A program made the translations under genes and the position numbers. The notes below the pieces were generated by a model. That model saw only the letters and a list, made by a program, of their open reading frames with translations. It searched no databases and was not told the origin of the DNA. Positions 33,067-64,000 of a stretch of 64,000 bases of DNA are shown here, one piece after another. Positions within the stretch are counted from its first letter, which is position 1, and the number at the start of each line of letters is the position of its first letter. The stretch lies in assembly GCF_905475395.1 (NCBI RefSeq), contig NC_058337.1, positions 105,332,368 to 105,396,367 of the forward strand, given 5' to 3'. The DNA comes from Chrysoperla carnea (Eukaryota > Arthropoda > Insecta > Neuroptera > Chrysopidae).

Positions 33067-33849
33067 TTTATTTATATTATTTTTAATATCTAATTAAGTA
33101 AATATTATTAATTGCAAGTTATTGTTTAAAAAGCTTCCATTTGATTTACAAATTTTATTAAATGTTTGTCTATGTTCTCTATCGGTTTCAATTTTGACGT
33201 ACAGGTTTTGACATTTGACAACGGTTCAATTCAGTAGAATTCACCCTATGCTTATGAGTAACCAGATGGTAACCAGTGTGCGTTCATTGAATGATATGGA
33301 TGGCACGAAATAAAAAGACAGAAGTTTTTCTGTGAGTCCTTACTCCCCAGTTTTCTCCACGATCACCTACAGCTTACCTTACTTATATTAATTATTAAAA
33401 TAGGCGTTACTTAAAAAATTAGTCATAAAATATTAATATTAAAACATTTAACATATTACGTTAAATGTTCGAAATAATTTTCGCTCAAAAACCTTTCCTT
33501 TACTATGGTGACTTTTTCCAAATTTCTGTATCGCATATCGGCTTAATACTAGTATTAAACACTTTCAACGAAATTTTTTTCGAACATGATACCACAATCC
33601 ACATTTTTTCAATAAAAATTGAAGGGATTGGTGACTTAGTTCTAAACCTTCTGATTCTATTTTAAAAAGTACCGAGACTGAACCTTTGGCAGAACCATTT
33701 TATGCGTACCTATACGTATTGAACTTTCTTTGCCTTTTAGCTGATGAAAAAAATTACTGTCCACACAATAAAAGTTGATTTACGATCTTTTTATCATGGA
33801 TATCATGTGACGGCGATTTTACTTTGTTATAAATTTACGTTTACTTTTT

Positions 33850-36920: not shown

Positions 36921-37195
36921 CTATAACAATTATTCCATGACTCTTGGTATGGCAAAATTTTCCCAACAACTTTCACATGCTATCGTCTACAGCTTCATTT
37001 TGAGTATACCTTCTGATGTTTACTTTACTAATTATTGAACATAAAACAATTGGTAAATATCAAATTGATTCGGTATACAAATCTCAATAAAACTAATACA
37101 CTACCTCCCGTACTATAATATACAATCCATATAAAATCATAATGGAAACATAAAACTTTTAGACAAAGATAGATTTACCAAAATTTATGATGTGC

Positions 37196-37230
37196 GCATG
37201 ACGTTTACATGTGCAGATATGAGTCACGCA
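37196..37230 (+). promoter_or_regulatory. Conserved upstream block, cGLR copy 1
   Basis: This 35-bp block, running from GCATGAC to TCACGCA, recurs without gaps 5' of all three cGLR genes, and 28 of 35 positions are invariant. It contains TGAGTCA, the AP-1/bZIP consensus, and lies 204 bp before the ATG. Weaker similarity with copy 2 extends 5' ('aaaacttttagacaaagata', about 37152-37171) and a 'ctaaatatt'-like tract follows. A 'tatttaaataaag' tract at about 37328-37341 could be the TATA region. A regulatory role is inferred from conservation only. Confidence 0.6.
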
Positions 37231-37433
37231 CTCGGCACTCCACTCAATATTTTTTAAACAATAATACAATGTATATTCCAGATAATTCTGTGTTATAACT
37301 TTGATAATTCTAGATAATTCTGTGATACTATTTAAATAAAGTCGTAAGCGAGAAACAATTCATTATTGAAGTATCGCTTTCTTATGTACAGTTTATAAAA
37401 GTAAAAATTAAGTGGTAGCGATTACTATCAAAA

Positions 37434-40400: not shown

Positions 40401-43400
40401 TGAAACAGATATTCGTTTTCATGGATTATTCAAAGTCATTAAGGCCCAAAAAATACAAAAAACCGGGTAATTTAACGATTAGTTAAGTTAAGTATTTTAG
40501 ATCATAACTTAAAAACTACTCATCCAATATAGTTAAAAGAACCCTATTTTTGTGATTTGTTCGATTTTTTGCCTTTGATGTGTTTAAAAATCGTTGTTTG
40601 CAGTAGTTTTTAAAAAAAAAAAAAAAAAAAAAAATACAAAAATCTGATTCGTATAATGAAGACGAGTTTCTAAAATATCGACAATAATCGTTAATGAAAG
40701 AAAACAATAAAAATTACTTATTTTGAGTGTTTTAAGTTAACTAAGGTTCGGTGTCAATAGTTATCGAAACAATCTAAAAAGTTAAAAATAAAATTATTAA
40801 TTACTCGAGCATGTTCGTAAAGGCAAAGTATAAATTTCACATCAAAAATTTTTTGGTTCCTCGCTTATATTTACACCGTTTATACATATTCTAGAAACAA
40901 TGACATCCATTCGATTCGTACACTGTATTTAAACTGAATTTCTCACCTCTTTTTATACTATTTTTATCCCAATCAGAATAAGTGAATCTATTACGCTTAA
41001 GGGAATGGGAATCCTAATAAACGTATCATGAATGTTTTCAGAAATTATCCTGGTATGTGGTTCCAAAACCAGTGAAAACGTCAAATGGAAGTAATTCTAA
41101 AAGTAATGAAGTGAATTTAAATTGGCGATTAGCTTTTCACGAACATGAAAAAGTCTTAATTGCTGGAAATGAAAGACTAAAACCTGCGTTACGATTGTTA
41201 AAAGTGAGTTTTAAAATGATGTTTATACGTAGATAAATGATCTATCTTAATTTTTTTCAACAGAAATTTCGTGATTCCCAAAACTTCCCAAAAATCGCTA
41301 GCTACTATTTAAAAACAATTTGTTTGTGGGAGTTGAAAAAACCCGAAAATAATGGACTATGGACATCGGGATCTTTGAGCTATGTATTTGTCCATGTAAG
41401 TGCACATGATAAGATTTAAGTATAAGAAAATTTTTTCATTTAAATATTGATTTTTTAGCTTTTGAAAGCCTTTTATGAATCGTTAAAGGTTGGTAAAATC
41501 GATTACTACTGGCAAAAGGAAAATAATTTACTTGCGGTTGTTAAGAAAGATACTATCGATAATAATTCCAACACACTAAAGAAAATTATTGATAAAATCG
41601 AAGCGGATCCAAGATTAATTCCATCTTTTATTTGTAAGTTATTCATTATTTTATAATTTAACTTTTTCCAAATTGTTAATGTCAGCGATAAATTAAAAAA
41701 TAAAAAAAAAACATTTTAGGAGAACATAAGGCACATTGAAACAATCACAATATTCGTATCTTTATTTTTATTATGTGGTCAGGTCGCCATTTTAATGCAG
41801 TTTTCATTTTCCGTTGATGAGCGCGTACAGTTCAGTTATGCTGAAAATTTCGTTTTAATTGAAAATAATTTTACGTGCGGTAAATGTTTGTTTTTTCTCA
41901 ATAATTGGTACATGTTTGTCGTAATACTTGGCATAAGAAAATGCCTAGGTTGAAAAATATTCGAGCTTTCTTTCATATCTAAAGTGCTCATAGGCACAGT
42001 GAAACGTAGCGAAATTGTGATTTACATGCGGAATTTGATGTACGAGTAGTAGACTCCATTACCTGAAACAGGAAAGGAAAACTGTTGAGTGAGGTAGATA
42101 ATTTTAATTAACAGCACGTTACGTAGAAACTAAAAAAAATATTTACTTTAAGAAGATCCTTCGGCTCATACGAAATAATTTAATTTTGACTAATTTTTCG
42201 ACGAAATGTCAATAATTTTAGTTTGGAAACATATATCTAAAGTTTGAAATATTGTTGTAAGACACAAATTTTTAATTTTTTACCATGGATTTTACATATT
42301 AACATATTTTGTTTTAATTTCAGTATCAAAGAGAGAGTATGAACAATATTCCAACCATCGAGGAGGTAAGTAAAGGAAAATTGAATCCCCCAATTCCATA
42401 AACTTAAATTTACGTGATAGTGTTAACAGGAATTTTTTTAAATTCTATTCATATTTTAGATCTCAGGGCAAGTAAAAACAATAACTTATCTACTATGAAG
42501 TTAAAAAAGGTAAAATCTAATACGTTTTGAATTTTTCCTTCCCCGTCAGAAATAAGATAATTTTATCAGTATTTAATTTTACTTTTATAATATTTAATAA
42601 TAATTTATTGTTTTTTAATGAATGTGATTTTTTAAAATTTTATTGCGAATTGACATTCCCTGAATGTCGGACATCTAGTCTCATTGACTAGACTAATTCA
42701 TATATATTTTATTAATTTCGGATCAAATTATAACGTTCTAGTTAAAGTAACTATAGTTCGTTTAAAAATATGAAAGAAACAAGGTCAAATTTATTTTCAT
42801 TAAAAAAAGATCACAGTAGGCCTTTTAAGTGTTACAAAATTTGCTATCTTTTTGAAGAATTAATTGGTTCCTAAACAATTAAATGGCCTTTTTCGGAGTT
42901 TTGTTAAAAAATCCAATCATTTGACTCAGAAGCTTTAGTATTTTTTTAACGAACTATAGATCGTTAAACGTACTTTTTATTTTACATAATAGACATAGTA
43001 AATAAGTATTCTTAGCCTGAGTGGTACAATAGCTTAACGTCTCTCAGGAACCGCTCAAAATAAAAAGTGCATATATGGACCAGCAAAAAATTTCTGGTTC
43101 TGTGATTACTATATAAATACTTCTATACCAAAGAAATTATTGAGTGCAAATAATTTACCGTTAATTTGAAGTAGTTCTAATGCTCTATTGGTTGTTTAAA
43201 AGAGACTAAATAACTTTCTGATCTTTAAATATGTTCATTTTGCTTTATAATGCATTACGCTTTGCCATCTGTGTTCATTAGTTTGAATTCGATTATCCTT
43301 AAACCAAAAAAACTTAAGATAATCTTGTAGTAAACTGCACAAAATTAATTAAGTGATTTATCTAGCCATTGGATACGTTTAGTAGAAAAGAGCAAACGGA

Positions 43401-46073
43401 AGCGATATGGAGCACCTAAAATGAACGGTTGAGTTCAAAGTGATCTGATTAATAACAAGCTATCCACATTTTATTATTGGACTTGAACAGACGCTCTTTT
43501 TTGCTAAACTCATACTATTAAAATAAAACAAAAATTAATAAAACGGTTTTCAGTATAATTTTAAATGATTTTTAATAATTTCAAATGTTTATATTATATG
43601 TAAAACCTTTATTCTATGCTCGATTAGTGCTATAATTTTATAAACTTTCGAAGGCTCATTATAGGACGCTACATATCGCTGAAGACTTCTTAAACTGATT
43701 TACATCACAAAAAAGGGTAACCCGACATAAATCTATAGACCATAATAGATCACCTAATCATTTTATAATTCTTTTTTTTTTTATAAACATACACGGTTGA
43801 TTATGATTAGTTCATAAAAGCAAAATATGTACAATTAATTTTATAAATTTTTATAATTATTTTATTACGTAGGTAATTTACTTTTAAGAATGAATTCCTA
43901 TTTTAATAATATAACCCAAAAACTTTACTGTTTAAGGCTATCATTTTTATTTTTTGTAAAAGTTTTGTAAAATAAATTCAATTTTTATACCACCTTTACA
44001 TTTGTAATCATTGAAAAAATTTCCATTCAAATGTAAATTACCTTGTATTTGAAATGGTGACTAAGTGGAAATTTTGCGTATCCTCTGAACTTTATCCTTT
44101 TGCTTCAGTATTTTCAACAGCTTATGACGAATTTCGAAGTGCTTATTTGTCAATTGTTTATAAGAAATTTTTATTAAAGAAGTTAAAAAAATTGAGTTTT
44201 TTGACTAGAAAATTTTTTTAAAATGTGTTTATGCCCATTTCTTAGAAGATTATAGTTGTTAGTTAAGTTCGCCGTTTTCAATTATAATAAGTTGAATTAT
44301 TTGAGTTTCCAAAATTCTTAATACCTAATGATAACTTTGGGACCTAATGATAACCATACAATACATGGGACAAAATATTTTACAATCGTTGATCAGATGA
44401 AAAAAATTTTGTTTTTCTTAAATTTTGAGTTGAATATTAAGCTACCCGATAATTTGAAAGTTTAAAAATAAATTTAACCTAATAGTTTTTCAAAATTTCC
44501 CGTACATGGCCCATAAAATGAAAAATGAATGTCATATATTTGGAAAAAAAGTTATCAAGTAATGTCAAAATGAACTAAGTGGATGGTTATCATAGGGTAA
44601 ATAATATTGAAATATATCCTTGATCACATAATCTTGAATAAGTGTGACTAACGATTTGTTAAAAATTTTTTAGTTACATTTTAAAAACTTAATAAAAGTT
44701 GCAAAAACAAAACTTACCTGTATAATCGACGTTAAATGCCTTTTAATATTCAACAATTATTGACAGAGAACATTATGGGAGACAGGGCAGGTAGTGTCCA
44801 TCTGCGAATTTGCGCGATAACGCGAATTTACAGATCTATGTTTTACATGAATTTGTGTAACTGACCTAGTAATGGGCAATTTTATTTCTATATGAGCTGC
44901 AACATCCTGAAAATACTCTGTTTTATATCCTATTCAAGGTTTTGATTCGCATTTCTTAACAAAATATGAAAATACCGTAAAAGAGATGCCAAAAAATGAT
45001 ATTAAATGAAGGTCGACTAAGAAATATGGCTGATACAAGCATTTTAACTACTAATTAGACAGAGAGATCAGACATAGTATTTGACGTCATATACTATGTT
45101 TCCCATAAGAACTCCATGCTGAATTTTGTTTTGCTAGAAAGAGATATGCAAATCCTTGAATGCTTTTATCTTGGTTGTTTTTATAGTTATTCGAAAAATA
45201 ATTTTTTCCTGCTATTTTTTTTATATGAATGAGCTTTTATTAAAGCAAAAAAAAAAAATCATATATTCGCTTCAAAAATTCATATATTATTATTTCCCCT
45301 CATGTCACGTTTTAGAGGTTCACTTTCTCGCCGTATTTACTTCCCCGTCTACACTACTGCAGTGTTTAATGTACATACGTTATACCTTAGTGTTTACGTT
45401 TTTTTATATTTTTATAGATAAAATTGGAAACGTGCCGAAAGAAAAGGAATCAGACAAAATTTCAAATCAATCATCACTTGAAAATTTCAATTCACTTCAC
45501 CGAGAGATACAGAAAGTGTTTGAACAAAAGGATCCAGGCGAAATTTCAAATACTAATAATCAATCATCAATTGAAAATTTTAATTCACTTCATCGAGAGG
45601 AGAAACATAAACTAATTGAAGAAAAGGATTCAGAAAAAATTTCAAAAACTAATAATCAATCATCACTTGAAAATTTCAATTTACTTCATCGAGAGATACA
45701 AAAACTGATTGAAGAAAGCGATTCAGGCAAAAATTCAAATACTAATAGTCGATCATCAATTGATAATTTCAATGCACTTCACCGAGAGGAGAAACAGAAA
45801 CTGATTGAAGAAAAGGATTCAGGCAAAATTTCAAATACTTATAATCAATCGTCAATTGAAAATTCAAAACTTCACCGAGAGAAACAGAAACTGATTGCTA
45901 TTGTATGCAATGAAATCAACAGTGTTCAAAGTATTGAAGAATTGAATGCTATAAAAAACATCTTTACGTCTATTCAATTCTTCAGGAACAATTCCTCGGG
46001 CTCAAATCGAGAACAGTTACAGTCAACAATGAACAATGCAACTGATTTTTATACACACCATACATATATGTAG
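37434..46073 (+). CDS. cGAS-like receptor (cGLR), copy 1, with repeat-rich C-terminal tail
   Basis: Exons: 37434-37565, 38568-38839, 39803-39920, 39998-40156, 41042-41203, 41264-41395, 41459-41633, 42324-42365 and 45418-46073 (stop TAG). They sum to 1848 nt, exactly 616 codons. Residues 1-383 form an NTase core plus Mab21-type helical domain. The activating GS motif is G71-S72 (AGSYYDGLKVGKPDEYD), and the catalytic acids are D86 and D88 (DLDLIF) and D198 (FSIDLVPVL). The KIASYYLKTICLWE helix is typical of Mab21/cGLR proteins. These enzymes make cyclic dinucleotides on sensing a ligand and signal through STING. No Zn-thumb H/C/C/C cluster is seen. Residues 398-615 are a tail of five repeats (see 45459-45897). 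Its linkage to the core rests on matching phase across a 3.05 kb intron. If the exon-8 donor is not used, the protein stops at 399 residues (TAA 42371-42373). The exon-4 acceptor (aataag) is weak. Confidence 0.85.
39000..39260 (+). repeat. Dispersed repeat C copy in cGLR1 intron 2
   Basis: About 250 bp shared with 55595-55850 (intron 1 of copy 3): 'aaaaacgaag.agttataag', 'caaagattgttgc', 'tttgtttaatta', 'tctgcccgt' type anchors in the same order and orientation. Because it occupies different introns in the two genes it is an independently inserted repeat, not part of the gene duplication. Confidence 0.65.
42366..45417 (+). other. Putative last intron of cGLR copy 1
   Basis: This 3.05 kb AT-rich stretch lies between exon 8 and the repeat-bearing exon. 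One small candidate alternative exon lies at 42460-42509. No hydrophobic tail-anchor exon like those of copies 2 and 3 was recognised here. No mobile element or RNA gene recognised. Confidence 0.5.
42460..42509 (+). other. Candidate alternative exon of cGLR copy 1
   Basis: It is a 50-nt segment preceded by 'tattttag' and followed by 'gtaaaa', whose entry phase fits exon 8 (G|AT). It would add 17 residues rich in Lys and Asn. Its exit phase does not fit the exon at 45418, so it would have to be a different terminal exon (TGA soon after if the donor is read through). Supported only by splice-like signals. Confidence 0.25.
45459..45897 (+). repeat. Five-unit coding repeat, about 96 bp per unit
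   Basis: Within the last exon of cGLR copy 1, five successive units of about 31-32 residues follow the pattern I-S-N-T-N-N-Q-S-S-[IL]-E-N-F-N-S-L-H-R-E, then a Lys/Glu-rich QKLIEEKDSGK half. Units 1-4 are full and unit 5 is shortened in the middle (SSIENSKLHREKQK). The region is strongly polar, with heptad-like spacing of Leu/Ile suggesting short helices. Frame and codons are preserved in every unit, which argues for translation. No known domain recognised. Confidence 0.8.
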
Positions 46074-49032
46074 TACATTATAAGTTTAGTCTAAAGTTTT
46101 TTACGCTTATTACAGTCTAAATATTTGACCTTTTTATACCGTGAGCTCTCATAATAAAGAGATAACCTTATGATTATTTAAACCTACCTTTCTACAAAAT
46201 TGATTAATGTAAGTTTAGTAATTAATAATATCGAGGTTTTAATCGTGGTCATATTAACACGATAATCGGTAATTAAGATTTTCGATAATGTTTTCTGTCT
46301 GAGAAAATTATTGAGGACACTAATATAATTAAATGGCAGGAATTTTTCAATGCAAGAGTCAAAAGTTTATAATTAAAATTGTAAATTTTAGAAACAGACT
46401 GTCTGTACTCTTCTGATTTCATTGGGTGTCTCTTTCACCTCACCATATGGTAGGAGTATTATGTATATGATAAAACTACATAAGGTTTCGTGGAGCACCC
46501 ATCTGGAATGAAGATGTGTCTTCATTTTAGTGTATTTGATCCCTCAACCCTATCTTTTTATATAAAGCATTTAAGAAATTATAAGTCACGAATCTTCAAA
46601 TCGATTAATCCAAATAAAAGTTAAAATTATTAACAATTGCCGTGTCGATCGAAATCTTATACCATTTCCTAGCTCTCATTTGTATAGTGTTTTACGTGTG
46701 TCTCCAAAAAAATTTTAAGCATTTACGTAGGATCTTAGTGTTCAAGTGTAAAAAAGTACAAATTATTTTTAAGAACGAATTTCTATTTTAGTAATTAACT
46801 AAAAAATTCGTTAAAGCTATCATTACTCAATTGTTTCTAGAAGCATTATAAATAAATTCGATTTTAATTTTAAGATGATATTTACATTTGTCATTATGAT
46901 TATTAAAATAACTCCTTTCAAAAAACTATCCAAATTCTCCTTGATACGATCCTGGTTTTTTTTACCTTTCGCTTTCTTTTCGTTTGTTATTCGCATCTGG
47001 CCGCAGGTAGAAATGCAACATTTAAATTTTCCATATTTTTTTAACTTATCTAGTATAGGAAATGTTTAGGGCAAAAGTTAATCAAATCAACGTACCTGTG
47101 TTTTGTTTTTGCCCGCGAGTGAAAAAATCTACTTTTAATCAAAACACGTGTCAAATCTATGTGCTTGATACACTGAAGCTCGCGATTAATTAAAAAAAAC
47201 TTTTTAGTTTTTTTATATTTCTATAAAAATATACAAAAGATATGTTTGTAATTATTTTAGTCAAGGAGATTTTTAAATGGATTTCGGGGATTTAGGTACT
47301 ATGCAAAAAATGTGAATCGTATTCCAGAAGTTAAAATTCCACATAAAGTACATATATAAGGTAAAACAAAATAAAAGTTTATTATTCGATAGATCGAAAA
47401 GTGTATGGCAATTTCCGAAAATTCTTCTAGTGAATTTTTTACTTTGTCAGGTAGATGCTTCCCAGTTCATCCAATCATGTTCATTCCAATCTCAAATTTG
47501 TGCTGCATGCTTACAATTAACACACAAAATTTCGTTTTTTTAATTAATGGGTAGCAAAATTTAAAATACAACTATGTTTAGAGAAAATTACTTTAGGAAA
47601 TTTCCTATTTTCTAATGTCACAGAAAGTACAGTTCGATTGGACAAAATATATTGTTTCACTCACTAAAAAAGATGGGATAAATTGGCCACTTTTTTATCT
47701 CACAACTCTATTGTCTAAAGAAAGTCTTTTAACGATTATTAAGAAAAAATTCAATTTGCGATATTTTACTTATTAAACTTTACCCAGCGCCTGCACTATA
47801 TATTTTTATAGTAAGCACTCTAGACATTAATTATTGAAGCAGTATGTGTAAAAAGAACAAACACTATAAGACAGGTAAATGTAATAACAAAGACAAAATA
47901 CAATGTTTTTTCTATTAGCGTGCATTTAAGGAAGTTTGGGACGTAAACAATCGGAGGAAAAGTACGGAAAATCAGCAATTCGTGAATTCTACGTTTTATA
48001 GCATGTCACGAAGTAAATAAATAGTTTTAATACTAAAAGCAATATATAAGATTTAAATTAAACGAGTGAAAATAAACAATTGACTGAGTTACTTCTTGAA
48101 ATACCTTGTATAGACAGTGTTGAATACCAGGTACCTTGTATTGTTTTATAAATAAGTTTGAAAAAACAAAAACATTTCTGCCACATAAAATGGTGACATT
48201 CTGACCGTCCTTTTAAAATTTCGAAAAAAAATTATTTCCGAAAAAATTTTTCAAAAAAAAGTTGTTTATTTTTTTATTTACATTTTGTATTTAAACTTTT
48301 GTTCTGTTTCTTACAATTTACAAGATGGGTTCTGCAGAAGCCAAGCCTCAATTGACCTATGTTGCTCATTCATTTTTGATGTCCTGAGAACGCTGTAAAA
48401 ATTTCAGCTGAATATCTCTTTTCACTTTTGAATTATCGTGATGATAGATGACAGATGGAAATGGACTATTTAGGTGATTTTGTGAACACCTAATTTGGAA
48501 AGCTTAATAGCTTTTTTATGGTGATTGAAATGAATTTAAAATTGTAAAATTACTGTTTTTTAAATTTATAATACCTGTTAATTAAATGGCTAAGTGAATC
48601 GTTTAAAAATATTTGCAGTAGTTTTAGTATTAATTGAAGAACATCGTACTAAATTTGTATATATTTTGATATAACATCCTTAATTTTACTTACCACATCC
48701 TGCATGTAATACAACATACAAAACTTTTAGACAAAGATAGTTGATCAAATATTTATAAAATACGCATGACCCTTACATGTGTAGATGTAAATCACGCATT
48801 TAGTAATCCCCTAAATATTAAAAAAACTTTTATTATTGTTAAAATGTAAACGTAGATAATTTCACTATCTTATCACGTAGCCACATAACCATCAATATTT
48901 AAATGTAATCGTTGCAATTGCATGCATCCGTTCATTATTAAATTTCAATCAATTTTATTAAATCACAATTAATTATTACTAATTTTCAGTTTTTTTAAAG
49001 TGAATATTGATAATTGAAAGTTGTCTAAAAAA
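46074..49032. other. Intergenic region between cGLR copies 1 and 2
   Basis: About 3 kb, AT-rich. It contains a partial - strand copy of dispersed repeat A (about 48060-48500: 'caattgactgagtta' through 'caattgacctatgttg' to 'tttaggtgattttgtgaac') and the upstream block of copy 2 (48764-48798). No gene supported. Confidence 0.7.
48764..48798 (+). promoter_or_regulatory. Conserved upstream block, cGLR copy 2
   Basis: This is the ungapped counterpart of 37196-37230 and lies 235 bp before the ATG. The bZIP-like core is altered here (TAAATCA where the other two copies have TGAGTCA), although the flanking GCATGAC, TTACATGTG and TCACGCA parts are kept. The shared tract 'aacttttagacaaagata' lies just 5' (about 48723-48740). 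Confidence 0.55.
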
Positions 49033-52000
49033 ATGGCTGCAAGTATAAGTTTAGAAAATGATACTAAATATGATGTTGTTGAAAGTGAATTACATTATAT
49101 TAATTCAAAATTTATATCATTAAATGCTGAAGAAAGAAAAGAAACCAATGCTTTCTTCTACAAGGTATTTATTTATAAGAATAGACCAAAATAGCTCCTA
49201 TACTATCATATTTGTTTATCCTTTTCTGTTGTTTCCAGATTCCTAATTTCTCATCCGTTTATTGACCAAAACAGGTGCTACATGAGCATTTATTAAGTTT
49301 GTTTTTCTGTTGCCTGATTCCGTGTCACACATTACAACACAAATTTAAACCCTATATTACAATAATGTTTCAGACTAGAATCTGGCAACAGAAAATGACA
49401 ATTACTTACATGACGACGTAGACCTATTTTTTCATATACAGTAGAACCTCGATAAGTTAAAGTCCAAGGGAAACACAAAATATTTTAAGTTATAGAGGTT
49501 TTAAGTTATCAAGGGTCTATGTTAGGTAAAGGTTAATATAGAGGTATGTATATGTTTCTATGTACCCTAGTTAATATAGAGGTATGTACATGTTTCTATG
49601 TAGTTACTGAGGGCCTATACAGAGATTATTTATTTAAGTTATAGAGGCTGCATATTTTAAGTTATAGGGGTTTTGGGCTCTGATGGGAAGGGAACATAGT
49701 ATTTTTTGAAGTAACAGAGGTTTTTATGTTACCGAGGTTTACTGTATAAAACAATTTTTTAACGCAAATTATAGTGCTAACCCGTTTCCAAGTTCGTTTC
49801 TAAGAGAATACAAATTTAAATTTACATTATGGATAAATATATTGTACTTCTTTTCGCAGTTTATTCCGTCATTCGTAAACAGAATGCAAGATGTTGATAT
49901 ATTATTTGATTCTATGTTTCAATCAATATTATACGCTGGAAGCTACTACGAAGGCTTAAAAATTGGTAAACCAGACGAATACGATCTGGATTTAATTTTT
50001 AAATTACCAATTAATTATGATGCTTTGGAAATAACGTCGTCGCCGGAGAAACCTGGATATGTGAGAATACGAATTTCAGATCTTGAACATAGAAGATTGC
50101 TAAAAGACCAATATTGGAGTGAGCGCTACAAGTAAGATGAAAGTTTTTTCAAATTAATAGTCCTTGTTAGTATTAAGACTTGGAGACATTAGCAAATTTC
50201 GAATCATTTTTTGCAGTAAGGAGCCCCAAGTAAATTAATAAGTCAAATTTCGTAATTATTGATAGAAAATCATGACATGATTTTCGGAAAGGACAGATAA
50301 AAAATTAGGTGATGATTAGTTTACAAAAAATTATTATGTAAGAAATAGAATAATGCCTGTGTAGTGTAACATATTCTTTTTTAATGGTCCTTTTATTATG
50401 CCCCGACGGTTTGCAATTTTGTGCCAATGTATCCTAGTCCTTTTAAGTTAAGTTGAGCAGCCTATATCGCATATTTAGTTTTTGAAAATTAAAAGGAAAA
50501 TTTATTTTTATTCCACATAGCTCGGTTGATAAGGAGCTCGGTTGTGAGTTCCCACTATTAGCTACAAACGACATATTATGCGACACTAATAGGGTAAGAA
50601 TCATATTAGAGTTTTTTTTAACGTACAGTTAAAAAAGCTTTTTCTAACTTGTTTTCACTCTATTATAACATAATTTTACATGGAAACAAGCCGAAAAATG
50701 TGAATTTAGTGTGATTACGCTTGGCTCTCTGTTTCAACGGATACAAACGTTTACAACAACCAATCATAAGTTGTTTTTTTTATTAAAAAATATAACTTTT
50801 TTTTCCTATTGCTTTGCGTGCCGCATGTCTTGCATTTATACATTTTTAACCCCATTTATAGAGGTAAATACTTAAGACGAATTGAAGAATAAGAAGAATT
50901 GTTCAATGCTATGCTAGTTTAGGCAGTAAACGTACCTAAGAACTAAATTCCAGCAAAAGAATATTCCGGGCTTATCTTTTATAGGATTAAATGCTTAAAA
51001 AACTGAATCATACGTATAGATTAGCTCAGTAATAACCATTGGCATAAAATTTATTTATTTTTTTATTTCCAGAGTAATGGCTAACTGGTTTGATGAAAAT
51101 AAATTCTTTATACCTGATAAATTTCGTTATTGGCTTCAATCGGTTGTACAAAAAACCATAAATCGATACACATATGACAGTGATCAATGGGTAATTATAG
51201 ATAATTACTACATTATTTGTTTACATTAAAATTAATTATTGTTTTTATATTTAGATATGTTATTCCACATCTGGTCCAGCCATCACGTTGCATGTAGAAA
51301 AAGACGATATTGAATTTAGTGTTGATTTAGTACCTGTTCTTCAAATGCAAAATCGATGCCCGCCATCGGAGATTTGCAATATACGAAAATCGAAATTTTT
51401 AGAAGAAGATTTTTATGAAGAAAATTCTGAAGAAGAAGATTCTTACGAAGAAAATTCTGAAGAAGAAGATTCTGTAGAGAACAAAGTAAATTCAAATGTT
51501 TCTAAAATAAATCCTGTTTGTATTTTAATACGGAACAAAAAATGTCAACAAACTGATTTTGAGAAACATTTATAAATATTAAGATTTCTGAAAAGCCGAA
51601 AATATTTAACTCTTCAAAAAACTCTTAATAGGAATCTTGATGAATTTTACATTTTTAGATGTTATCCTGGTATGTGGTTCCAAAACCAATAAAAAGTGGG
51701 TCAAATAATACAAGTGGTGCTAATTTGAATTGGCGATTAGCGTTTCACGACCACGAAAAAAAATTAATATCAGGAAATGAAAGACTAAAACCTGCTTTGC
51801 GATTATTAAAAGTAAGTTTTGAAATTAAATTTAACCTAAATAAATAATTTACTGAAATTTTTTCAACAGAAATTTCGTGATTCACAAAATTTTGCGAAAA
51901 TTGCTAGCTATTATTTAAAAACAATTTGTTTATGGGAGTTGAAAAAAGCCAAAAACAAAAGACTTTGGACATCAGGTTCTTTAAGCAAAGTTTTTGTTCA

Positions 52001-52690
52001 TGTAAGTTTATACAAGAAATGTTGATTCAAAAAAAAAAAGAAAAAAAAAAAAAAGAAAACAAATTATGAAATAAAATTTTTAATTTTTAGATTTTAAAAG
52101 CTTTTTCTGAAGCAATAGAAATTTGTGAAATCCAATATTATTGGCAGAAAGAACACAATCTGCTTTCAGATATAAACCGAAGTACAATTGTTGATATGGG
52201 TTATCGATTAAACAAAATAATTAATAAAATTGAATTGGATCCTACAATAATTCCTCAATTCATTTGTAAGTATCATGTTATTTTATTCATAACAAATAGT
52301 TTGTTTGGTTGAAAACGGTTGAGAAAGTATATTAGACTTGCCAATAAAAAAAAAAAAATTAATTTAACTATTTAACTACTAATTCTTTAATTTTTAATTT
52401 CAGTATCAAAAGAAGAATATCAACGGTGTAAGTGTGAGAATGTCTATTTCAGTGAATCGCGAATCCAACCGTATTCGCCAATCACTTCAATCAGTTCATC
52501 TTACCGCCCGTCTTCACCAATAAGATCAACCTATTCATCCATCCAACCAATTGTGGTTCAATCTGAAACACAATCTGAAACACAATCTCAAATTCCAGGT
52601 TGGGGACAAATTGCGTTGGGATTGGGACTGGGACTTGGGGCAGTTGGGGCGCTAGTTTTATTAAACAGAAACAGAAACAGGAACAACTAA
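49033..52690 (+). CDS. cGAS-like receptor (cGLR), copy 2, acidic insert and predicted tail anchor
   Basis: Exons: 49033-49164, 49860-50131, 51073-51190, 51255-51485, 51659-51811, 51870-52001, 52091-52265 and 52404-52690 (stop TAA). They sum to 1500 nt, giving 499 residues. The GS motif is G71-S72 and the catalytic acids are D86, D88 and D198 (FSVDLVPVL), all intact, so cyclic-dinucleotide synthesis is plausible. Exon 4 is 231 nt against 159 and 174 in the sisters because of a Glu/Asp-rich tandem insert (51414-51473). The last exon encodes a Ser/Pro/Gln-rich linker, then a hydrophobic Leu/Gly-rich segment at about residues 474-491, then a final N-R-N-R-N-R-N-N. One segment at the very C-terminus with a basic end and no signal peptide is the layout of a tail-anchored protein with the enzyme in the cytosol. 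Which membrane is unknown. Exon sizes 1, 3, 6 and 7 equal those of copy 1. Confidence 0.92.
49439..49744. mobile_element. Pogo/Tc1-like MITE
   Basis: It lies in intron 1 of copy 2, flanked by TA on each side (49437-49438 and 49745-49746). The ends CAGTAGAACCTCGATAAGTT and, inverted, CAGTAAACCTCGGTAACATA are imperfect terminal repeats of the pogo/Tigger type. It is 306 bp with no coding capacity. It includes an internal tandem duplication with a 38-bp period at about 49533-49608. Confidence 0.8.
51414..51473 (+). repeat. In-frame 30-bp tandem duplication encoding an acidic insert
   Basis: Two 30-nt units, 51414-51443 and 51444-51473, differ by one silent base (tat/tac) and encode YEENSEEEDS twice in succession. 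The surrounding codons (EED before, VEN after) extend the acidic run. It lies about 34 residues after the third catalytic Asp, a region that is short in the sister copies. Near-identity of the units implies a recent expansion. Confidence 0.9.
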
Positions 52691-53832
52691 GATTTTTATT
52701 TATTTTTTTATTTTGTAAACATTTTTTTTAACTCCAAAAATTACAAATTCCTCGAAGTCTATAATCTTTTGAGTAATATTACAGTCGATGTATATGTACA
52801 TATGTATATGTACATGTTCCATTCATACATATAATCAGTTTGCGCTGTGGGGCTTATCCCAAAGAATGAAATCTGTACGTGGTGTGCTAGCAAAACTATT
52901 TTTCCCGACAAAATCTTCGGTTGAAACCGGACTCCATATTTATTTTTTTAAACGTATACGTTTTCCCATTTTCGTAAAAATTCATAAGTAAGAAAGTGAT
53001 TTTTGAAGGAAAATTTTTTTTTCTGAATATTTGTCAAAAGACTATAGCTTTTTAAAGCAAGTTTTAAAATGGAAAAAATTGTATTCTAAGTATTAATAAT
53101 TTTTTCTTTATTTTTTATTTTTTTTGAAGTTTGTAAAAAGGTTGTATTTTTAATAAGTTTTTAATTCAAGAAAGAAAACCTAGATTTAAGATATTTTCAA
53201 AAAACTAACTGTCCTTTTTTTCTGTCTCCTTTTTAACGGCCAATAATTCACTTATTGCGTTTTTTATTATGCTTTTAAGCCTCTATAATATATATTGGAT
53301 TTTAATACTAAGAAATACTCTATCTAGCGATAGAAAATAGAACTATGGTTATGTAGCTCCATAGATACATAATATATAACGGAAATGTAATCTTAAATCT
53401 TGTAAACCATACGCACATACCATTCGCCTAAAAGAGATTAATGTGAGAATTTTTACCACACAAATTGTTAAAGAATTATATAAAACATTAAAATAATTGT
53501 TTTAATTTTGGTTTTATCATTATGTCATTTAAAAAAAGTAAATGGCGAGTTAATTTTTCATAAATTTCCAAATTGTGGTCAGGAAAAAAAAATTTCTCAC
53601 ACAACTAAAAAATTAAAACTAATAATGTATATGAAAACATTTAACCTAAAAATTAAAAGTTCAAAATGTAAATTAAAAATAAAAAATTATAAAATTTAAG
53701 GTCCTATTAGTCTTTATATTCTATGAAAAAATCAACTGAGTATGGTTTACATTTTTTTTACTCCTGGCGCTGACATCTTTGTCAGCGCCGTTAAAATCGA
53801 ATAACATCTTTGATAAAAATAGAAAATATTGC

Positions 53833-53867
53833 GCATGACCATTACGTGTGTAGATATGAGTCACGCA
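53833..53867 (+). promoter_or_regulatory. Conserved upstream block, cGLR copy 3
   Basis: Third ungapped copy of the 35-bp block, with the TGAGTCA core intact. It lies 571 bp before the ATG but only about 30 bp before a TATA-like sequence, so it would sit roughly 60 bp upstream of the likely transcription start. That supports a proximal-promoter role for the block in this gene. Confidence 0.6.
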
Positions 53868-53896
53868 ATCACTACTTCCCTAAATATTTTAACCTC

Positions 53897-53906
53897 TATA
53901 TAAATA
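53897..53906 (+). promoter_or_regulatory. TATA-like box of cGLR copy 3
   Basis: TATATAAATA follows the conserved block. A start of transcription about 30 bp later (near 53930) would leave a 5' UTR of about 500 nt, possibly interrupted by an intron from the donor at 53949. Inferred from position and sequence alone. Confidence 0.45.
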
Positions 53907-54437
53907 GTACGACAGAGGAAATGTTTCTATTCTACACGATAATTTGGGTAAGTTATTTCAACGGTTTATTAAGTTCTTTATTTCACTGATACCAAAAATA
54001 CCGTTTATGGTAAAAAGTATCATGTATGGATGCCATCTAGAAACTTCCAAAGAAAATTACTATAGAACATTAAAATTAAGAAAAAGTTCATTTCAACATT
54101 GGACCAAAAACAGCCTTCTTTGAAGCCACAGGTATGGCTATGTTTGAAACTTGTATTTCACGCACCACTTCGGAATTTCGGGTTCAATTTATAGATTTTG
54201 CTCACTTTGTCTTTTTTCTTAAATCAGCCTATGAAATTGTTTGTATATAGAGGCTATGTGGCGTCTATATAAGATTTTTTTATCACATTTCAATTTGTGT
54301 TATAACCAAAAAGTTACTTGCGTAGACAATTCTGCATTGAATTTTACTACTATTAAAAAGTATATATTGCGAAATTTCCTTCTACCGTTGATAAAATTGT
54401 AACTAATAATTATTCATAAAAATTAAAAAAAAAAAAA

Positions 54438-56795
54438 ATGTTTATTGAGTCAAGGGCAGGATTACCAAATGGTAATAAGTACGATGTTGTAGAGAGTGAA
54501 TTAAATTATATCAATTCTAAATTTATTTCATTGAATTATGAAGAAAAAAGAGCTACAAGTGATTTTTTCACAGAGGTATTTATAACTTTTAACATGCCGA
54601 GAATGCCAGTAAGAATGCAAGTTTTTATTTTAGAATAAACGTTCTATTTTTACACCATGCATATATGCAATGAGCAAGGTATACTAAGTTTAGTCCCAAG
54701 TTTGTAACGCTTAAAAATATTAATGCTGTGAACAAAATTTTGGTATAGGTGTTTATAAAATCACCTAATTATTCCATTTTCGGTTGTCTGTCCGTCTGTT
54801 TACCAACACGATAACTCAAAATCGAAGAAGATATCGAGCTGAAACAGCGTATTCAGTACGTAAAAAGTGAGGTCAAGTTCGTAAATGAGCAACATAGGTC
54901 AATTGGGTCTTGCTCTATGGGTACGTAAGACCCATCTTGTAGACCGTTAGAGATAGAACAAAGTTTAAATGTAAAAAATCTTCCTTATAAAAAAATAAAC
55001 AACTTTTGTTTGAAACATTTTTTCGTAAACATCACTGTTTACTCGTGAGGGCGAAATTAAGCATAAATTGTATAGTATGTATTATATGGGGATATCAGTT
55101 ACATATGTGTGACATGTATGTATGTGTAATGTGATAGAGTAATCCACACTGTCTATGCATTATATTTCAACAGTTAACTCAGTCAATTGTTTGTTTTCAC
55201 TAGTTTATTGAAAAAATCGTACAAATTTTATGAAACTTTGATAAGTCAAATCTCATTGTCGTTCATTATGTTTTAAAGTATCGTTAGGCGCCTAATCAAG
55301 TGTCTAGACTTTATGTTTGGGATAGCCACTGCCACTGATCTGCGATTCACCGATGCCCTTTTTTTGGGCAGAATGTCGAAATACTTTTAAGGGAAAAGTA
55401 TCTAATATCTTCAAAAAGGCTAAACACTTTAGCATACGGAAGTTAAAATTAATATGTATGATATACAAAACTTTTCTCGGTTACTAAAAAACTTCTTTGG
55501 TCTGCCTTCTGATATAAAATCATGAAGGCAGCCCGTCTCTGATAATGTTGCTGGGGGTTTTCTCCTGCCTTAAGTTCAACACTGTTTCCAATAGTGAAAT
55601 TAAAATTTATTAAAAAACGAAGTAGTTATAAGCATACAAAGATTGTTGCTCATCTCTTTTTAACAAAACAAAGTTTTATATGGATCTCTATGGTAATATC
55701 GGACAATGATGTCACTAACCTATATTTTCCTCTTTGTTTAATTAGAAATTTTAAACGTTCATATTTTTCGTACTTCTTAAGATTTTCAAAAACCAACTTC
55801 ACTTTTCTGCCCGTGCAGTAAGAATTCTTCACCTAAAGTAATTAAAAATTTTAGCCAAGCAGCCTATTGCGAATGCATTTTAACACATATTTCTGATAGA
55901 GACTATCTTCTTTTCACAGTTCATTCCATCATTCGTAAAGGGAATGAAAGCTGTTGATAAATTATTTGATTCTACGTTTCAATCAATATTATACGCTGGA
56001 AGTTACTTCGAAGGCTTAAAAGTTGGTAAACCGGATGAATACGATTTGGATTTAATTTTTAAACTACCTATTAATTATGATGAATTGGAAATAACGTCGT
56101 CACCGGAGCGACCTGGTTATGTAAAAATTCGTCTTTCTGATCTTGAACATAGAAGATTGGTTAAAGATCAACATTGGAATGAATGCTATAGGAAGTAAGC
56201 TAAGAAAATTTTCAATTTAATAGCCCTAGTGTGGAACTTAAATTGAACAGGCAAGGACGTATTTGCATAATATCTAATAATAGGCGATATATTTGCGAAT
56301 ACTTTTTAACTTTAACATTAACTAACAGTAGTAAATAAAGTCTAAGTATGAATATCTTGAAAAGAAAACTCAACTTCCTCTCAAGAAATTTGAGAATCAT
56401 ACAATATGTTTTTTTTATTAATTAGTAAGTTTCAGCAAGTTTGTGCATATAACCTAAATGTTTAAAAAGTAAGTCAAATGCAAAAACATTAAACAACGAT
56501 AATAGAGCCAATTTTACAACTGCTGGAACGACTGAAAACTTTCTCACTCCCAAAAATCTGGTGACGAATAGCCAAATCCCCCTATTGCATGACCATCGTC
56601 AGGGCCGGATTTAAATTTCTGCCGCCCTGGGGCGCTGAAGAAAATGCCGCCCTATGACTGAAATTTTATTTTAATAGTTTTGATATCTTATTTAAAAAAT
56701 TAGAATAACTAATTAATTGCAGAAAATTTATTATGTATTACATATTATTTATTACTGTTCTTTTAAATCTTATATATTTAAACGAGCAATTCTTG

Positions 56796-56833
<38 letters not shown>

Positions 56834-59800
56834 ATGAGTATGTAGGGGTTTTTTGGGGCGATAAGTCGATCTAGCAAGGTTTCATTTTTAAAAAACGTCG
56901 TTTTATCCGTCTTTTCATGAAAAACTGAAATCGGCAATGCAAATTATAACTCTTCCTGACATCTATTGGTGTATATCGTAGTTAATGAAATACAATGCAA
57001 ATTATAACTCTTCCTGACATCTATTGGTGTATATCGTAGTTAATGAAATAAAATACATTACCGGGACATTCAAATTGGTATTTGTGTGGAGACATTTAAA
57101 ACGGTCTTCTATTAGTGATAAAATTTGTGTCTTTTTAAGAATACCGAGGAAAGCTCGGTCATCCAGATATTTTAAATTAATTAGTGTTATTGGATAATTC
57201 TCCAATTTTAGGAAAATTCATTGATCAATTAAAGTTTCTGTTATCAAAAAGACATAGATAATTTGAAAATATTTTTAATTCTTCAAAAAAACTATATTTC
57301 TGGAATTTATCAATTCCAGAAAAAAAAAATATCAAATTTTATTTTTGCAAACCTTTATGGAAATAAATTAATTAAACTATTTTAATAGTTTTCACTTAAA
57401 TTTCCTATATTATAATATACAAAATTTTGATTTGATACATAATGCATAAATTATATTTCTTGAAAAATAAAATATTTATTTGAAAGAATTAGTTTAGTTA
57501 ATTATATATTGTATTGAAAATATTTTTTCACTTTCCAAATTTTGCCGCCCTAGAAAATTTGCCGCCCTGGGCACTAGCCCCGACCGCCCCTAGTGTAAAT
57601 CCACCACTGACCATCGTTCTTAATTAATTAATTTTTTTTATTCCTAGAGTAATGGCTAAGTGGTTTGATGATGATAAATTCTTTTTACCTGATAAATTTC
57701 GTTTTTGGCTTCAATCGGTTGTACAAAAAACCTTAAATCGATACATATGTTCCAATGAATTGGCGGTAATGATTATTTATGATTTTACATTTTCCAAATC
57801 AAAAATATTTCTTATTCATTCAGGTATACGTTTCTACATCTGGTCCAGCCATCACGTTACATGTATTAAAGGCTAGTACTTGGCAACGAATTGAATTTAG
57901 TGTTGATTTAGTACCTGTTCTCCGAATATACAATCGACATCCACCACCGGAGATTTGCAGAACACATATAAGGGACGCACATATTTCTTCAGGACGAGTA
58001 ATCAATATTTTTCATCTTATGAGACTTTTTTTTAAGAAATATTGTTTGTATTTTAATGAACCATATCTTTCCAAAATTTCCTGTGTATCTTGAAAAAGAT
58101 AACCATATGGTTGCGATAAATAACTGGTTGGGCTAAATCTGAAATTTTTTGGAAAATGTTTATTTTTATGATAAAGAATGCCTAAATTTTGTTTTAATAA
58201 CTATATCTCTTTGAAGTTATATTTCTTTAGACGAGTTAAGAAAAAATGATTTAGGTGAATTACTATGACGCGCTACATATTGAAGTTAGTTACAATTTTT
58301 TAACACCATGAAGTAAGACGATAAACGAAATGTCACTCACAATAGATAATGATAGATAGATTACCGAATACCGATTAAGTATCATCTATGAACACAAACA
58401 ATTATTAAACTTATAAAATCGAAATTACATTTTTCTCTAGTGAGTGCATCATTCAGGTTAATTGAAGCATCCATTATTTGTTTACATTATTTATAAATTA
58501 TTATTTTTAATTTTATCGAAGAAGAATTTTTTTAAATTTTAGTTCATTTTATTTATATCGTTTAAAGCCCTACAACTTGAAAGTGATAATATTAAAACTA
58601 GCTTTTTTATTACTTCAATTTTTCCCAAAAACGGCTCTAATAATTCTTGATGATCGCAAACGATTCTATGTGTCATTTTAACACCTTCATTTTGATAAAA
58701 ATAAACTATCAATTTTTCTTTATTAAAAAATCGTTTCAAAAACATACACACAATTTTTCAAAATTGATTAAAAAAATACTATATGTTTGGTTAGCCGTCA
58801 ATATTCGATCTCATCTACTATTCCCAAAATTTTCAACTAAAGTCAACAAAAAATTCTAAGGAAAAATATGCGAAACGAGAATAGTTGATCTTCTGGAATC
58901 AATTTAAGAGTTTTATTTATCATACATATGGTTTCCACCTCTTCAGATTTGATCGGGAGACTCCAGAAAACGTGTAATTTCTCCCGTCTCTTGACATCAC
59001 GATCTTCAGAGTTCAGTAAATAAAGATTTGTTTTTTTGATTAACATTCAGATAAATTCCACAATTCTGAGCAGCTTTTATTTTAAATTATTTGACGGATT
59101 TTTATTTAAAATAATAATTATTTATGGAGAAACTGGATTATATAATATATAAATTACCGTATAGCATTATGATTCGGTGATATAATTATATTAATTTCAC
59201 TATCTCCCGACTTCCCGGAATTTTGAGTTGACGCAATCTAAATCACATAATGATAAATAATATGATTTTTAGATATTATCCTGGTATGTGGTACCAAAAC
59301 CAGTTAAAAGTGATTATATCTACAGTCGAGTTAATTTGAATTGGCGATTAGCATTTCATGATCATGAAAGGATTTTAATATCAGGAAACGAAAGGTTAAA
59401 ACCTGCTTTGCGATTGTTGAAAGTAAGTCTTCAAGCCTTAAAATAAAATTTGACCCAGTTAAATGACTTTCTTACCTAAACTTTAGAAATTCCGTGATTC
59501 TCGAAATTTTTCAAAAATCGCCAGCTACTACTTAAAAACAATTTGTTTGTGGGAATTGGATAAACCAGAAAATTCAAATATTTGGACATGGGGCTCTTTA
59601 AGTTACGTATTTGTTCATGTAAGTTCACTTATATAAAAAATTTAGGTTAAATAAAAATAATTATATTAAACAATTTGTTTATTTCCAGCTTTTAAAAGCT
59701 TTTTATGATTCATTAAAAGTTGGTAAAATCCCATATTATTGGCAGAAAGAACACAATCTACTTTCAGATATAAACCAAAGTACAATTGCTGATATGAGCT

Positions 59801-60318
59801 ACCTATTAAAGAAAATTATTGATAAAATTGAAACGGATCCGAAATTAATTCCCCAACTCATTTGTAAGTTCTTTTGTTTTACTTTATTCATAAAATTGAT
59901 TCTACAATTTAATTAAGTCGTATATTTCATTTGTCACTTGTCAGAAAATAGTTTCTAAGATACAAGCTTTTATTCCATTGAAAACTAAAAACATATTTTT
60001 CTCAATATGACTATTTTTGTAAATGTTTTGAGCGCTTAAAAGGTTTTACAGTGTGTGATTAATAAATATTTTTTTAAGTTTTATTCTTAAAAATTTTTTT
60101 TAATATCAGTGTCAACAGAAGAATATCAACTGTATAAGTACGAGCAAAGCCAGCGGAATGAGATTGAGCAGAGCGAGCGGTGTAGGATCGAGGAACATTT
60201 TAGAGTTAACTACGAGCATGCAGCTGATTCGAGAAATGAATCAAGTCTTTTTTGGAGAGTGGTAATTGGGCTTGCAATAACAACAATAGCATTTTTTTGG
60301 GCTAGTAAACATAATTGA
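54438..60318 (+). CDS. cGAS-like receptor (cGLR), copy 3, predicted tail anchor
   Basis: Exons: 54438-54575, 55920-56194, 57648-57765, 57824-57997, 59273-59422, 59487-59618, 59689-59863 and 60110-60318 (stop TGA). They sum to 1371 nt, giving 456 residues. The GS motif is G73-S74 (AGSYFEGLKVGKPDEYD) and the catalytic acids are D88, D90 and D205 (FSVDLVPVL). All family hallmarks seen in copies 1 and 2 are present. The N-terminus differs (MFIESRAGLPNG instead of MAA...), and exon 2 carries one extra codon. The last exon encodes a charged Glu/Arg/Gln helix-like stretch, then a hydrophobic segment at about residues 434-453 (SLFWRVVIGLAITTIAFFWA) and a final S-K-H-N, a predicted tail anchor unrelated in sequence to that of copy 2. 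Intron 2 holds a hAT element (56600-57609) and intron 1 a copy of repeat A. Poly(A) signal at 60353. Confidence 0.92.
54652..55204 (+). repeat. Dispersed repeat A, near full-length copy in cGLR3 intron 1
   Basis: It starts near 'caccatgcatatatg' and ends near 'caattgtttgttttcact'. It contains 'gtatactaagtttag', a short GTCTGTCC stretch, 'ccaacacgataactc' and 'aggtcaattgggtctt'. It is colinear with the reverse of 4550-5117 over nearly the whole length, which fixes the element at about 550 bp. Family unknown. Confidence 0.75.
55595..55850 (+). repeat. Dispersed repeat C copy in cGLR3 intron 1
   Basis: It matches about 39000-39260 in intron 2 of copy 1 (shared anchors 'gttataag.at.caaagatt', 'ggtaatatc', 'tttgtttaattag', 'ctgcccgt'). 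Opposite-strand open frames here are chance. Confidence 0.65.
56796..56833. repeat. (TA)n microsatellite
   Basis: 38 bp of TA dinucleotides with one interrupting C, inside the hAT element. Confidence 0.9.
56935..57050. repeat. 58-bp tandem duplication inside the hAT element
   Basis: The unit starting 'caatgcaaattataac' at 56935 is repeated from 56993 with essentially no differences up to 'gttaatgaaata'. The exact match points to a recent duplication. Confidence 0.9.
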
Positions 60319-62417: not shown

Positions 62418-63947
62418 ATGTCTCATCAAACAGGCATTAAAGGTTTATTAATTTATTTTTTAAATACATTTATTTACAATATAATTCTAATAATAGGGTT
62501 AATTTTTCAGCAAACGATTCGTTAAAGAAGTTTTTTGGAAAGTGCCGTGAAGGAAAAATACGTGTTTTTAAAATATCAATAGAAAATGGTAATTAAGAAT
62601 AAAATGATGAATTTTTTTCATTAAATTTTTTTAACTATTGTTATACTTTTAGAGGAATTGACATTGTCGGCATACAAGGATGTCAAAAGTACGTGGGAGA
62701 AAGATTATGATAAGAAAATTAAACCATTGGTTGAAGAAAATAAGCCATGTTATATATTTTACAGGTATGTGTGTTAAATCTTTCTTTATTGAAAAATAAT
62801 TTTTCCTTAGTTTACGATAAGAAAATTAAATTAAAAGAATTTTTCCTTGTAACATAAAATGACAAATAAATTGTTCTGGAAAAACAAATTAACTGATAGA
62901 TAATTTTCGAAAAAACTCATTACGCTCCGTTTTTATATTTACATTGTATGTCAAATTTCACAAATATATCGAGAATAATTGTCAAAATTAATAAAAACTG
63001 TTAATGATTCGGGAGGTGTACGAGAAAAATCTGTAGGGACACTTTAATATCGATCAATTTGCCATTTCGTCTTAAGTTTCAATCTAGTATTTCTGATCAG
63101 GAGGAGATATAATCGTTCAAATTTAAAATACGTTTTAGACAGATTTTATAATCTCTCTTGAAATATTTTTGCCCGTGTCTCCTGGACTATAACTATTAAT
63201 TCTACATCGAAAAACTTTTAAAAACTCTTCTACTCAAAACCATTGTCTTTTATGTGCTGTCGTCATAAGATCCCCTATAAACATTTAAAAGGCCCGTTCT
63301 CATTATACTTTAATTATAAAATTTGTAATTAGAGCACCATAAGAATACTAGTTCAGCCAGAGTAGTAGATTTCTGCAACCTCTTACGTTTTATTTATTGA
63401 ATTAAAACGTAAATATTTTTGTTATTATTGTAGATTAGATACAAAAAATGCTTCTGGATACGAATGGCTATTAATTAGTTGGATACCGGATACAGCGACA
63501 GTCCGCGAAAAAATGTTATACGCATCCACAAAAGCAACATTAAAGCAAGAATTTGGTACTGGGTATATTAAGGAAGAAATTCATGGAACTACATTGGTAA
63601 ATTCAATTTTTAGGATTCCGTCATCAAACATGAAAAACAGAACCCTTCTTGAAGAGAGTTCTTTTACTTGAAACTTAACGAGGAGAATACATTTCTGTTT
63701 TAGGACGATGTTACATTAAGTGGATATCAACGTTACAAAACATCAGCCAAAGCACCGGCTCCATTAACTAGTCGTGAAGAAGAGTTACAAGAATTACGTA
63801 AATCTGAATTAAGTTCATGTACTGATTATAGTGTAGATAGTCGTCAACAAACCCTTGGCGGTGTTTCATTTCCAATGACTGAATCAGCAAAACAAGCAAT
63901 TTTAGATATGGCACGAGGATCTTATGACTATTTACAATTTCGCATCG
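62418..63947 (+). CDS. twf: Twinfilin (3' partial)
   Basis: Exons: 62418-62442, 62511-62588, 62653-62764, 63434-63596 and 63704-63947, the last ending at a GT donor (CGC ATC G|gtaatt), so the gene continues beyond the window. 207 residues are visible out of the roughly 340 usual for the family. Residues from about 9 form the first ADF-H (cofilin-like) domain, with [18 protein letters not shown] at its start, then [29 protein letters not shown], the actin-binding long-helix region. The linker and the start of the second ADF-H domain ([15 protein letters not shown]) follow. Twinfilin binds actin monomers and caps barbed ends. The start is chosen because MSHQTG leads directly into the ADF-H domain, as in other insects. 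Confidence 0.95.
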
Positions 63948-64000
63948 GTAATTATATTTTTAGTAATACTAAACACTCTAACGAAGGTCACGGGAAAGGT

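Follow-up and report, generated by a model that had tools for sequence, protein, structure and literature searches.

We analysed a 64,000-nucleotide stretch of the genome of the neuropteran Chrysoperla carnea (C1:105332368-105396367, contig NC_058337.1; hereafter the window), in which three cGAS-like receptor (cGLR) genes lie in tandem on the same strand. The last exons of two of them, copies 2 and 3, encode a predicted transmembrane (TM) segment close to the C-terminus. The best reading of these tails, judged from sequence, is that they are real, fast-evolving anchors that would hold the sensor on an intracellular membrane. Wider searches covered the whole genome (559 Mb, 337 contigs).

The cGLR array and its catalytic core

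We assembled the exon models manually, guided by conserved splice edges. In all three copies every intron is of the GT-AG type and the spliced frames are open and in phase; the phases of exons 1-8 are the same throughout. Copy 1 (37434-46073, forward strand, as are the other two) has nine exons (37434-37565, 38568-38839, 39803-39920, 39998-40156, 41042-41203, 41264-41395, 41459-41633, 42324-42365 and 45418-46073) and encodes 615 residues with a soluble, repeat-rich C-terminal tail. Copy 2 (49033-52690) has eight exons (49033-49164, 49860-50131, 51073-51190, 51255-51485, 51659-51811, 51870-52001, 52091-52265 and 52404-52690) and 499 residues. The eight exons of copy 3 (54438-60318) lie at 54438-54575, 55920-56194, 57648-57765, 57824-57997, 59273-59422, 59487-59618, 59689-59863 and 60110-60318, and encode 456 residues. 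The models rest on splice sites and Pfam matches, and for copies 2 and 3 also on matches in the PDB.

Both Mab-21 (PF03281) and Mab-21_C (PF20266) were matched in all three copies, which are thus homologous to cGLRs over the nucleotidyltransferase core as well as the C-terminal helix bundle. The PDB search was run with copies 2 and 3 and with an intronless paralog described below. For copies 2 and 3 the top match was the Tribolium castaneum cGLR 7LT2 (E 8e-46 and 1.1e-49, respectively); with copy 3 the alignment covers residues 19-397. Further PDB matches by sequence were 8GJY and cGAS entries. The Gly-Ser loop and three acidic residues are retained in every copy (E84/D86/D198 in copies 1 and 2, E86/D88/D205 in copy 3). 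The published active-site motif of cGLRs is h[QT]GS [X8-20] [DE]h[DE]h [X50-90] h[DE]h (PMC9980059). The spacing from GS to E in the copies (11) falls within its range, and they deviate from it in two places, with A instead of Q/T before GS and a second spacing of 111, 111 and 116 instead of 50-90. The active Tribolium cGLR shows both deviations as well (GGS, and ~120 for the second spacing by hand count from alignments). Copies 2 and 3 are probably catalytically competent. The earlier, sequence-only reading of this DNA had taken the genes for cGLRs, and the two Mab-21 domains, the catalytic residues and, for copies 2 and 3, 7LT2 as the closest PDB entry bear it out.

Two sub-threshold Pfam matches, P-mevalo_kinase (0.0048) and Fin (0.76), each in one copy, were dismissed as chance. 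In copy 2 alone, exon 4 ends in an acidic insert of repeat-like sequence, EENSEEEDSYEENSEEEDSVENK (51387-51485), which falls inside the cGLR domain.

The core domains of the copies are 67-72% identical, with a nonsynonymous divergence (dN) of 0.16-0.21 and a synonymous divergence (dS) of 0.46-1.8, depending on the pair and the method. With dN this low relative to dS, the core domains are under purifying selection. That the genes are decaying or unexpressed, so that their tails are meaningless, is accordingly very improbable: three reading frames are intact across 8-9 exons, dN/dS is ~0.11-0.36 by pair and method, and the catalytic residues are retained.

Hydrophobic C-termini of copies 2 and 3

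In copy 2 the last exon (52404-52690) encodes the end of the cGLR domain, an S/P/T/Q-rich linker, the predicted anchor (52610-52663, residues 474-491) and a tail with a charge of +3, so that the protein ends in IALGLGLGLGAVGALVLL-NRNRNRNN. In copy 3 the corresponding exon (60110-60318) encodes the domain end, a charged linker, the predicted anchor (60247-60303, residues 434-452) and a short tail with a charge of +1, the terminus being LFWRVVIGLAITTIAFFWA-SKHN. The sequence-only reading had placed both exons at these positions, and its coordinates proved exact, each exon following an AG acceptor in phase 1 and closing with a stop codon. Its description of one hydrophobic segment followed by a few polar or basic residues was likewise upheld.

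The top 19-residue Kyte-Doolittle means are 2.07 in copy 2 and 1.85 in copy 3, with runner-up segments at 1.14 and 1.08; the maximum in copy 1 is 0.94. On the biological scale the predicted insertion energies are -0.07 kcal/mol (copy 2) and -1.39 kcal/mol (copy 3). The next-best segments of these two proteins lie at +4.22 and +2.41 kcal/mol, and all others among the best four listed for each of copies 1-3 are at +2.41 or above; the best of copy 1 reaches +2.81 kcal/mol and is not of TM grade. Control peptides from known single-span proteins gave -1.8 (glycophorin A), -4.7 (VAMP2) and -0.9 (cytochrome b5) on the same scale. TM segments and signal peptides were judged from hydropathy and this energy scale. 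When the residues of each tail were shuffled, the observed values were never matched (hydropathy 0/2000, energy 0/300, for each tail).

The arrangement of both proteins fits the layout of tail-anchored proteins, with one TM segment near the C-terminus and neither a second one nor a signal peptide, copy 2 being marginal by energy. Eight residues separate the segment from the stop in copy 2 (six if a 20-residue frame is used) and four in copy 3. The polar linker that precedes it is 68 residues long in copy 2, counted from SKEEY, and 45 in copy 3, counted from STEEY. The copy 2 tail matched nothing in the PDB, even at an E threshold of 10.

Descent of the tails and competing explanations

By dS, copies 2 and 3 are mutually closest (0.46-0.63, against 0.75-1.8 for pairs involving copy 1), and a single gain of the anchor could therefore account for both. 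Support for this pair in a tree of four sequences is weak (67%, 200 bootstrap replicates); with mab-21 added, a long mab-21 branch is placed beside copy 2 and support for the node falls to 51%. In a blastn comparison, copies 2 and 3 share a 43-nucleotide match that begins 13 nucleotides before exon 8, continues to ~30 nucleotides inside it and then ends. Local alignments, each compared with 200 shuffles, gave the same picture. The start of exon 8 is the sole matching part (0/200 shuffles as good), and shuffles scored as high in 132/200 cases for exon 8 without its first 23 nucleotides, in 86/200 for the protein tails, in 42/200 for the 3' flanks and in 72/200 for intron 7. Short introns align between the two copies, and matches in the long introns 1, 2 and 4 are confined to the intron edges or to repeats. 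Since the long introns likewise align poorly, the tails resemble other unconstrained or indel-rich sequence of similar age. Their shared hydrophobicity could reflect one inherited anchor that has drifted, two gains, or chance. A match between the region downstream of exon 8 in copy 1 and the tail plus 3' flank of copy 3 (1/200 shuffles as good) was set aside, being AT-rich and lying in the flank, ~500 nucleotides past the copy 3 stop.

Other shared sequences were noted in the array. An element of ~60-70 bp, ~80% conserved, lies 5' of the start codon in all three copies (37193-37253, 48754-48819 and 53830-53890) and is perhaps part of a common promoter. A 257-bp match of 78% identity between 39025-39274 (copy 1, after exon 2) and 55593-55848 (copy 3, before exon 2) is likely a dispersed repeat, and inverted copies, 71% identical, at 48235-48492 (upstream of copy 2) and 54746-55029 (intron 1 of copy 3) are likely remnants of a mobile element.

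The frequency of such termini by chance was estimated from the 137 stop-to-stop open reading frames that reach 60 codons on either strand of the window, excluding cGLR exons and including the exons of other genes. In seven of the 137, the 19-residue mean within the final 35 residues is 1.85 (the level of copy 3) or higher, and in seven the insertion energy is 0 or below in the same test. The chance of two or more hydrophobic tails is then 0.0076 among three genes and 0.015 among four.

These figures bear on the explanation that LS[K/T]EEYQ marks the approximate end of the cGLR domain and that a neutral, fast-drifting extension follows, hydrophobic by chance in two of the three tails, with the proteins acting as soluble cGLRs or being removed by quality control once their tail is exposed. 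We consider this unlikely, although it deserves weight: homology between the copies stops directly after the domain end, each copy has a tail of its own, with no homology detected between the three, 7/137 window frames pass the TM test at their ends, and the copy 2 tail contains short DNA repeats. Such an extension would, however, have to have reached a joint chance of ~0.008, with both segments at the extreme C-terminus, a polar linker ahead of them and basic residues behind, and it sits badly with the coding signal of copy 3, whose final 28 codons score 0.04 in frame as against -0.38 and -0.52 in the other two frames.

By several measures the tails of copies 2 and 3 look coding. After the conserved start of exon 8 the frame stays open for 88 codons in copy 2 and 62 in copy 3, as happened in 80/2000 and 17/2000 dinucleotide shuffles, respectively. 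By codon use, the real frame of the tail ranks first of six in both copies, by small margins. The last exon of copy 1 also ranks first of six, and none of 2000 shuffles kept it open, a figure inflated by its repeats.

Another explanation is an error in the last-exon model of one gene or of both, copy 2 being the likeliest case: exon 8 would use an internal donor and join an exon further downstream that escaped detection. Some or all transcripts would then lack the anchor, and the choice could be regulated in the manner of OAS1 p42/p46. Copy 1 provides a precedent, as its model leaves exon 8 after 42 nucleotides (donor at 42365), and copy 2 has a GTAAGT at 52428, 24 nucleotides into exon 8, with no nearby poly(A) signal past its stop. 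Against this, the frame of copy 2 runs open for the 88 codons already mentioned, and in copy 3 exon 8 has no GT[AG]AG and an AATAAA lies 35 nucleotides downstream of the stop; the motif is present in 13/22 modelled donors, hence its absence is not proof. We rate a wrong last exon as distinctly improbable, more so than a neutral extension. If exon 8 of copy 1 is left unspliced at 42365 (42324-42380), it reads ...SNHRGGK-stop and would yield a short soluble cGLR, so that two isoforms of this gene are possible.

In copy 1, the last exon (45418-46073) occupies the position of the TM tail of copies 2 and 3. It contains a 96-bp tandem repeat present 4.6 times (45465-45897), which is translated into units of ~32 residues. 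The motif [DE]x[FWY]xx[LIV], which has the form of an Atg8-binding LIR, occurs in four of these units (ENFNSL, ENFNSL, ENFNLL and DNFNAL); the units being repeats, this represents a single event.

A fourth cGLR gene was identified on C3 (L010, 1507-2601; C3:87416571-87417665). It is a single uninterrupted frame, taken as intronless, of 359 residues and ~41% identity; it retains the catalytic residues E68/D70/D178, its top PDB match is 7LT2, and it is perhaps a retrocopy. Two genes of the mab-21 type lie on C4. The loci L001 and L002 were rejected as cGLRs, being of the developmental mab-21 type by eye, with no GS motif, as were two weak genome matches (L033 and L034, E 0.96 and 1.9), which by eye resemble retroelement reading frames. 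No cGLR relative was confirmed among 203 pattern matches in IMG/VR or 150 in prokaryote genomes, collections unlikely to contain insect cGLRs, so that these negatives say nothing about absence.

A number of observations weigh against anchoring. No anchor is present in copy 1 or in the intronless paralog (best segment +4.21, hydropathy maximum 1.36), and the Tribolium cGLR is judged to have none, from its length and its purification as a full-length protein. No homology was detected between the tails of copies 2 and 3 beyond approximately the first 30 nucleotides of exon 8; only their hydrophobic character appears to be common, with no demonstrated sequence constraint on the anchor. The remaining points concern copy 2. 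Its segment is glycine-rich with an energy of ~0, hexamer-like repeats occur in its tail DNA both within the segment and after it, and its final 28 codons give no coding signal (-0.05 in frame as against 0.01 and -0.03). In addition, no AATAAA, ATTAAA or TATAAA is found in the 700 nucleotides after its stop, and donor-like GTAAG/GTGAG sequences at 52428 and 52434 could remove the tail by splicing.

Taking these points together, we lean, by a modest degree, towards at least one copy being genuinely anchored. Copy 3 is the better candidate; the copy 2 segment is glycine-rich, energetically marginal, built on short DNA repeats and potentially removable through an internal donor.

The genes flanking the array are of other kinds. 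A lipase gene (PF00151) lies at 11600-12169, and a dynactin p150-type gene (18180-33093, reverse strand; Dynactin domain 20029-20751, CAP-Gly 32629-33093) was joined as one gene by eye. A cofilin-domain gene, named by eye as probably twinfilin, is found at the right edge of the window (63369-64000). ARAGORN detected no tRNA. Matches to TTAGG (196 and 262) are uninformative as a taxonomic clue, the first ones listed being dispersed over C1.

Predicted membrane anchoring in relation to known systems

The closest relative of solved structure, the Tribolium castaneum cGLR (XP_969398.1, 7LT2), shares with copy 3 the Mab-21 domain, from approximately residue 19 of the latter to the LS/LTxEEY end, together with the E-x-D...D residues. 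It differs in being a 399-residue chain that continues for ~24 residues past the homologous region. This enzyme is activated by double-stranded RNA (dsRNA) (PMC8410604).

Nearer parallels for a C-terminal anchor are found in the sister OAS superfamily. Mouse Oas1b has a C-terminal TM domain that directs it to the endoplasmic reticulum (ER); many laboratory strains, in which susceptibility to West Nile virus is high, have a truncated form lacking this domain (PMC13372824). Like copies 2 and 3, it is a nucleotidyltransferase of the dsRNA-sensor type bearing a C-terminal TM segment, but it belongs to the OAS and not to the cGLR superfamily, and it has no 2-5A synthetase activity (PMC13372824), whereas copies 2 and 3 retain the catalytic residues. 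A Pfam search at E up to 1 found neither OAS1_C nor any other OAS domain in copies 1-3, and the likeness to Oas1b would thus be one of analogy only. Human OAS1 p46 is sent to endomembranes by a C-terminal CaaX motif, which is needed for binding the RNA of a picornavirus (EMCV) (PMC8357416). Here too a nucleic-acid-sensing nucleotidyltransferase is targeted to membranes through its C-terminus, as an alternative to a soluble form, but by CaaX prenylation and the splicing of one gene, and not by a TM helix on separate tandem paralogs.

Membrane association is also found closer to the cGLRs. MiD49/51 and ITPRIP are anchored at their N-terminal end, not by a C-terminal tail, and are not known to serve as immune cyclic-dinucleotide synthases. 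These proteins are paralogs inside the cGLR superfamily (PMC10732462), and ITPRIP is located at the nuclear envelope (PMC6550788), so that membrane association of Mab-21-fold proteins is already known. Among cGLRs, 87% are stand-alone enzymes, the remainder including ankyrin, TPR and multi-cGLR fusions (PMC9980059). The sequence-only reading had regarded an anchored cGLR as novel. No tail-anchored cGLR was found in those passages of the literature that were consulted, and PMC9980059 pools architectures below 0.5% as 'Other', so an earlier record may exist; the novelty is further narrowed by the C-terminal TM segment already known on a related nucleotidyltransferase, mouse Oas1b.

The membrane involved may be suggested by the charge behind the segment. 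In mammalian cells, lowering the tail charge of ACBD5 from +4.9 to +2.9 shifts it to mitochondria (in some cells also to peroxisomes), and at +0.9 it is mostly found at the ER (Costello et al. 2017, PMC5450235). By these mammalian rules, which are uncalibrated for insects, the +3 tail of copy 2 tends towards mitochondria or peroxisomes, and the +1 tail of copy 3 is intermediate between an ER and a mitochondrial type. The proposal of a membrane-anchored cGLR, as put forward in the sequence-only reading, thus stands as regards the cGLR genes and the tail-anchor form of both tails; its ER site and adjacency to STING are conjectural.

If the anchors are real, the tail-anchor layout implies an enzyme facing the cytosol. 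The single C-terminal helix of copies 2 and 3 would be inserted after translation into an intracellular membrane, and the enzyme would be kept cytosolic on a flexible tether of 45-68 residues. Such tethering would place a nucleic-acid sensor at the membranes on which RNA viruses replicate, near organelles carrying STING, or both. The ligand, which by comparison with the Tribolium cGLR may be dsRNA, would be met locally and the cyclic dinucleotide passed to STING; the soluble counterparts would be copy 1 and the intronless paralog of C3. STING-domain exons are present at a single place in the genome, on C5, which makes a cGLR-STING pathway likely. Given the activation of the Tribolium cGLR by dsRNA, a membrane-held dsRNA sensor feeding STING is the most economical reading; in it, we infer the translation of the tails as modelled, their insertion, the identity of the membrane, the ligand, the product and the benefit.

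A broader proposal is made more tentatively, as one that we hold to be slightly less probable than its opposite: a membrane-tethered cGLR may have evolved independently in an insect lineage, convergent with Oas1b and OAS1 p46, and the catalytic core shared within one array may be sent to different compartments by different C-termini (a repeat tail, an anchor of the mitochondria/peroxisome type and one of the ER/mitochondria type). If this is true, the anchoring of antiviral nucleotidyltransferases would have arisen in the OAS as well as in the cGLR superfamily, and the location of a cGLR, besides its ligand, would be under selection. The C. carnea array, in which anchored and unanchored paralogs are adjacent in one genome, would then constitute a natural experiment.

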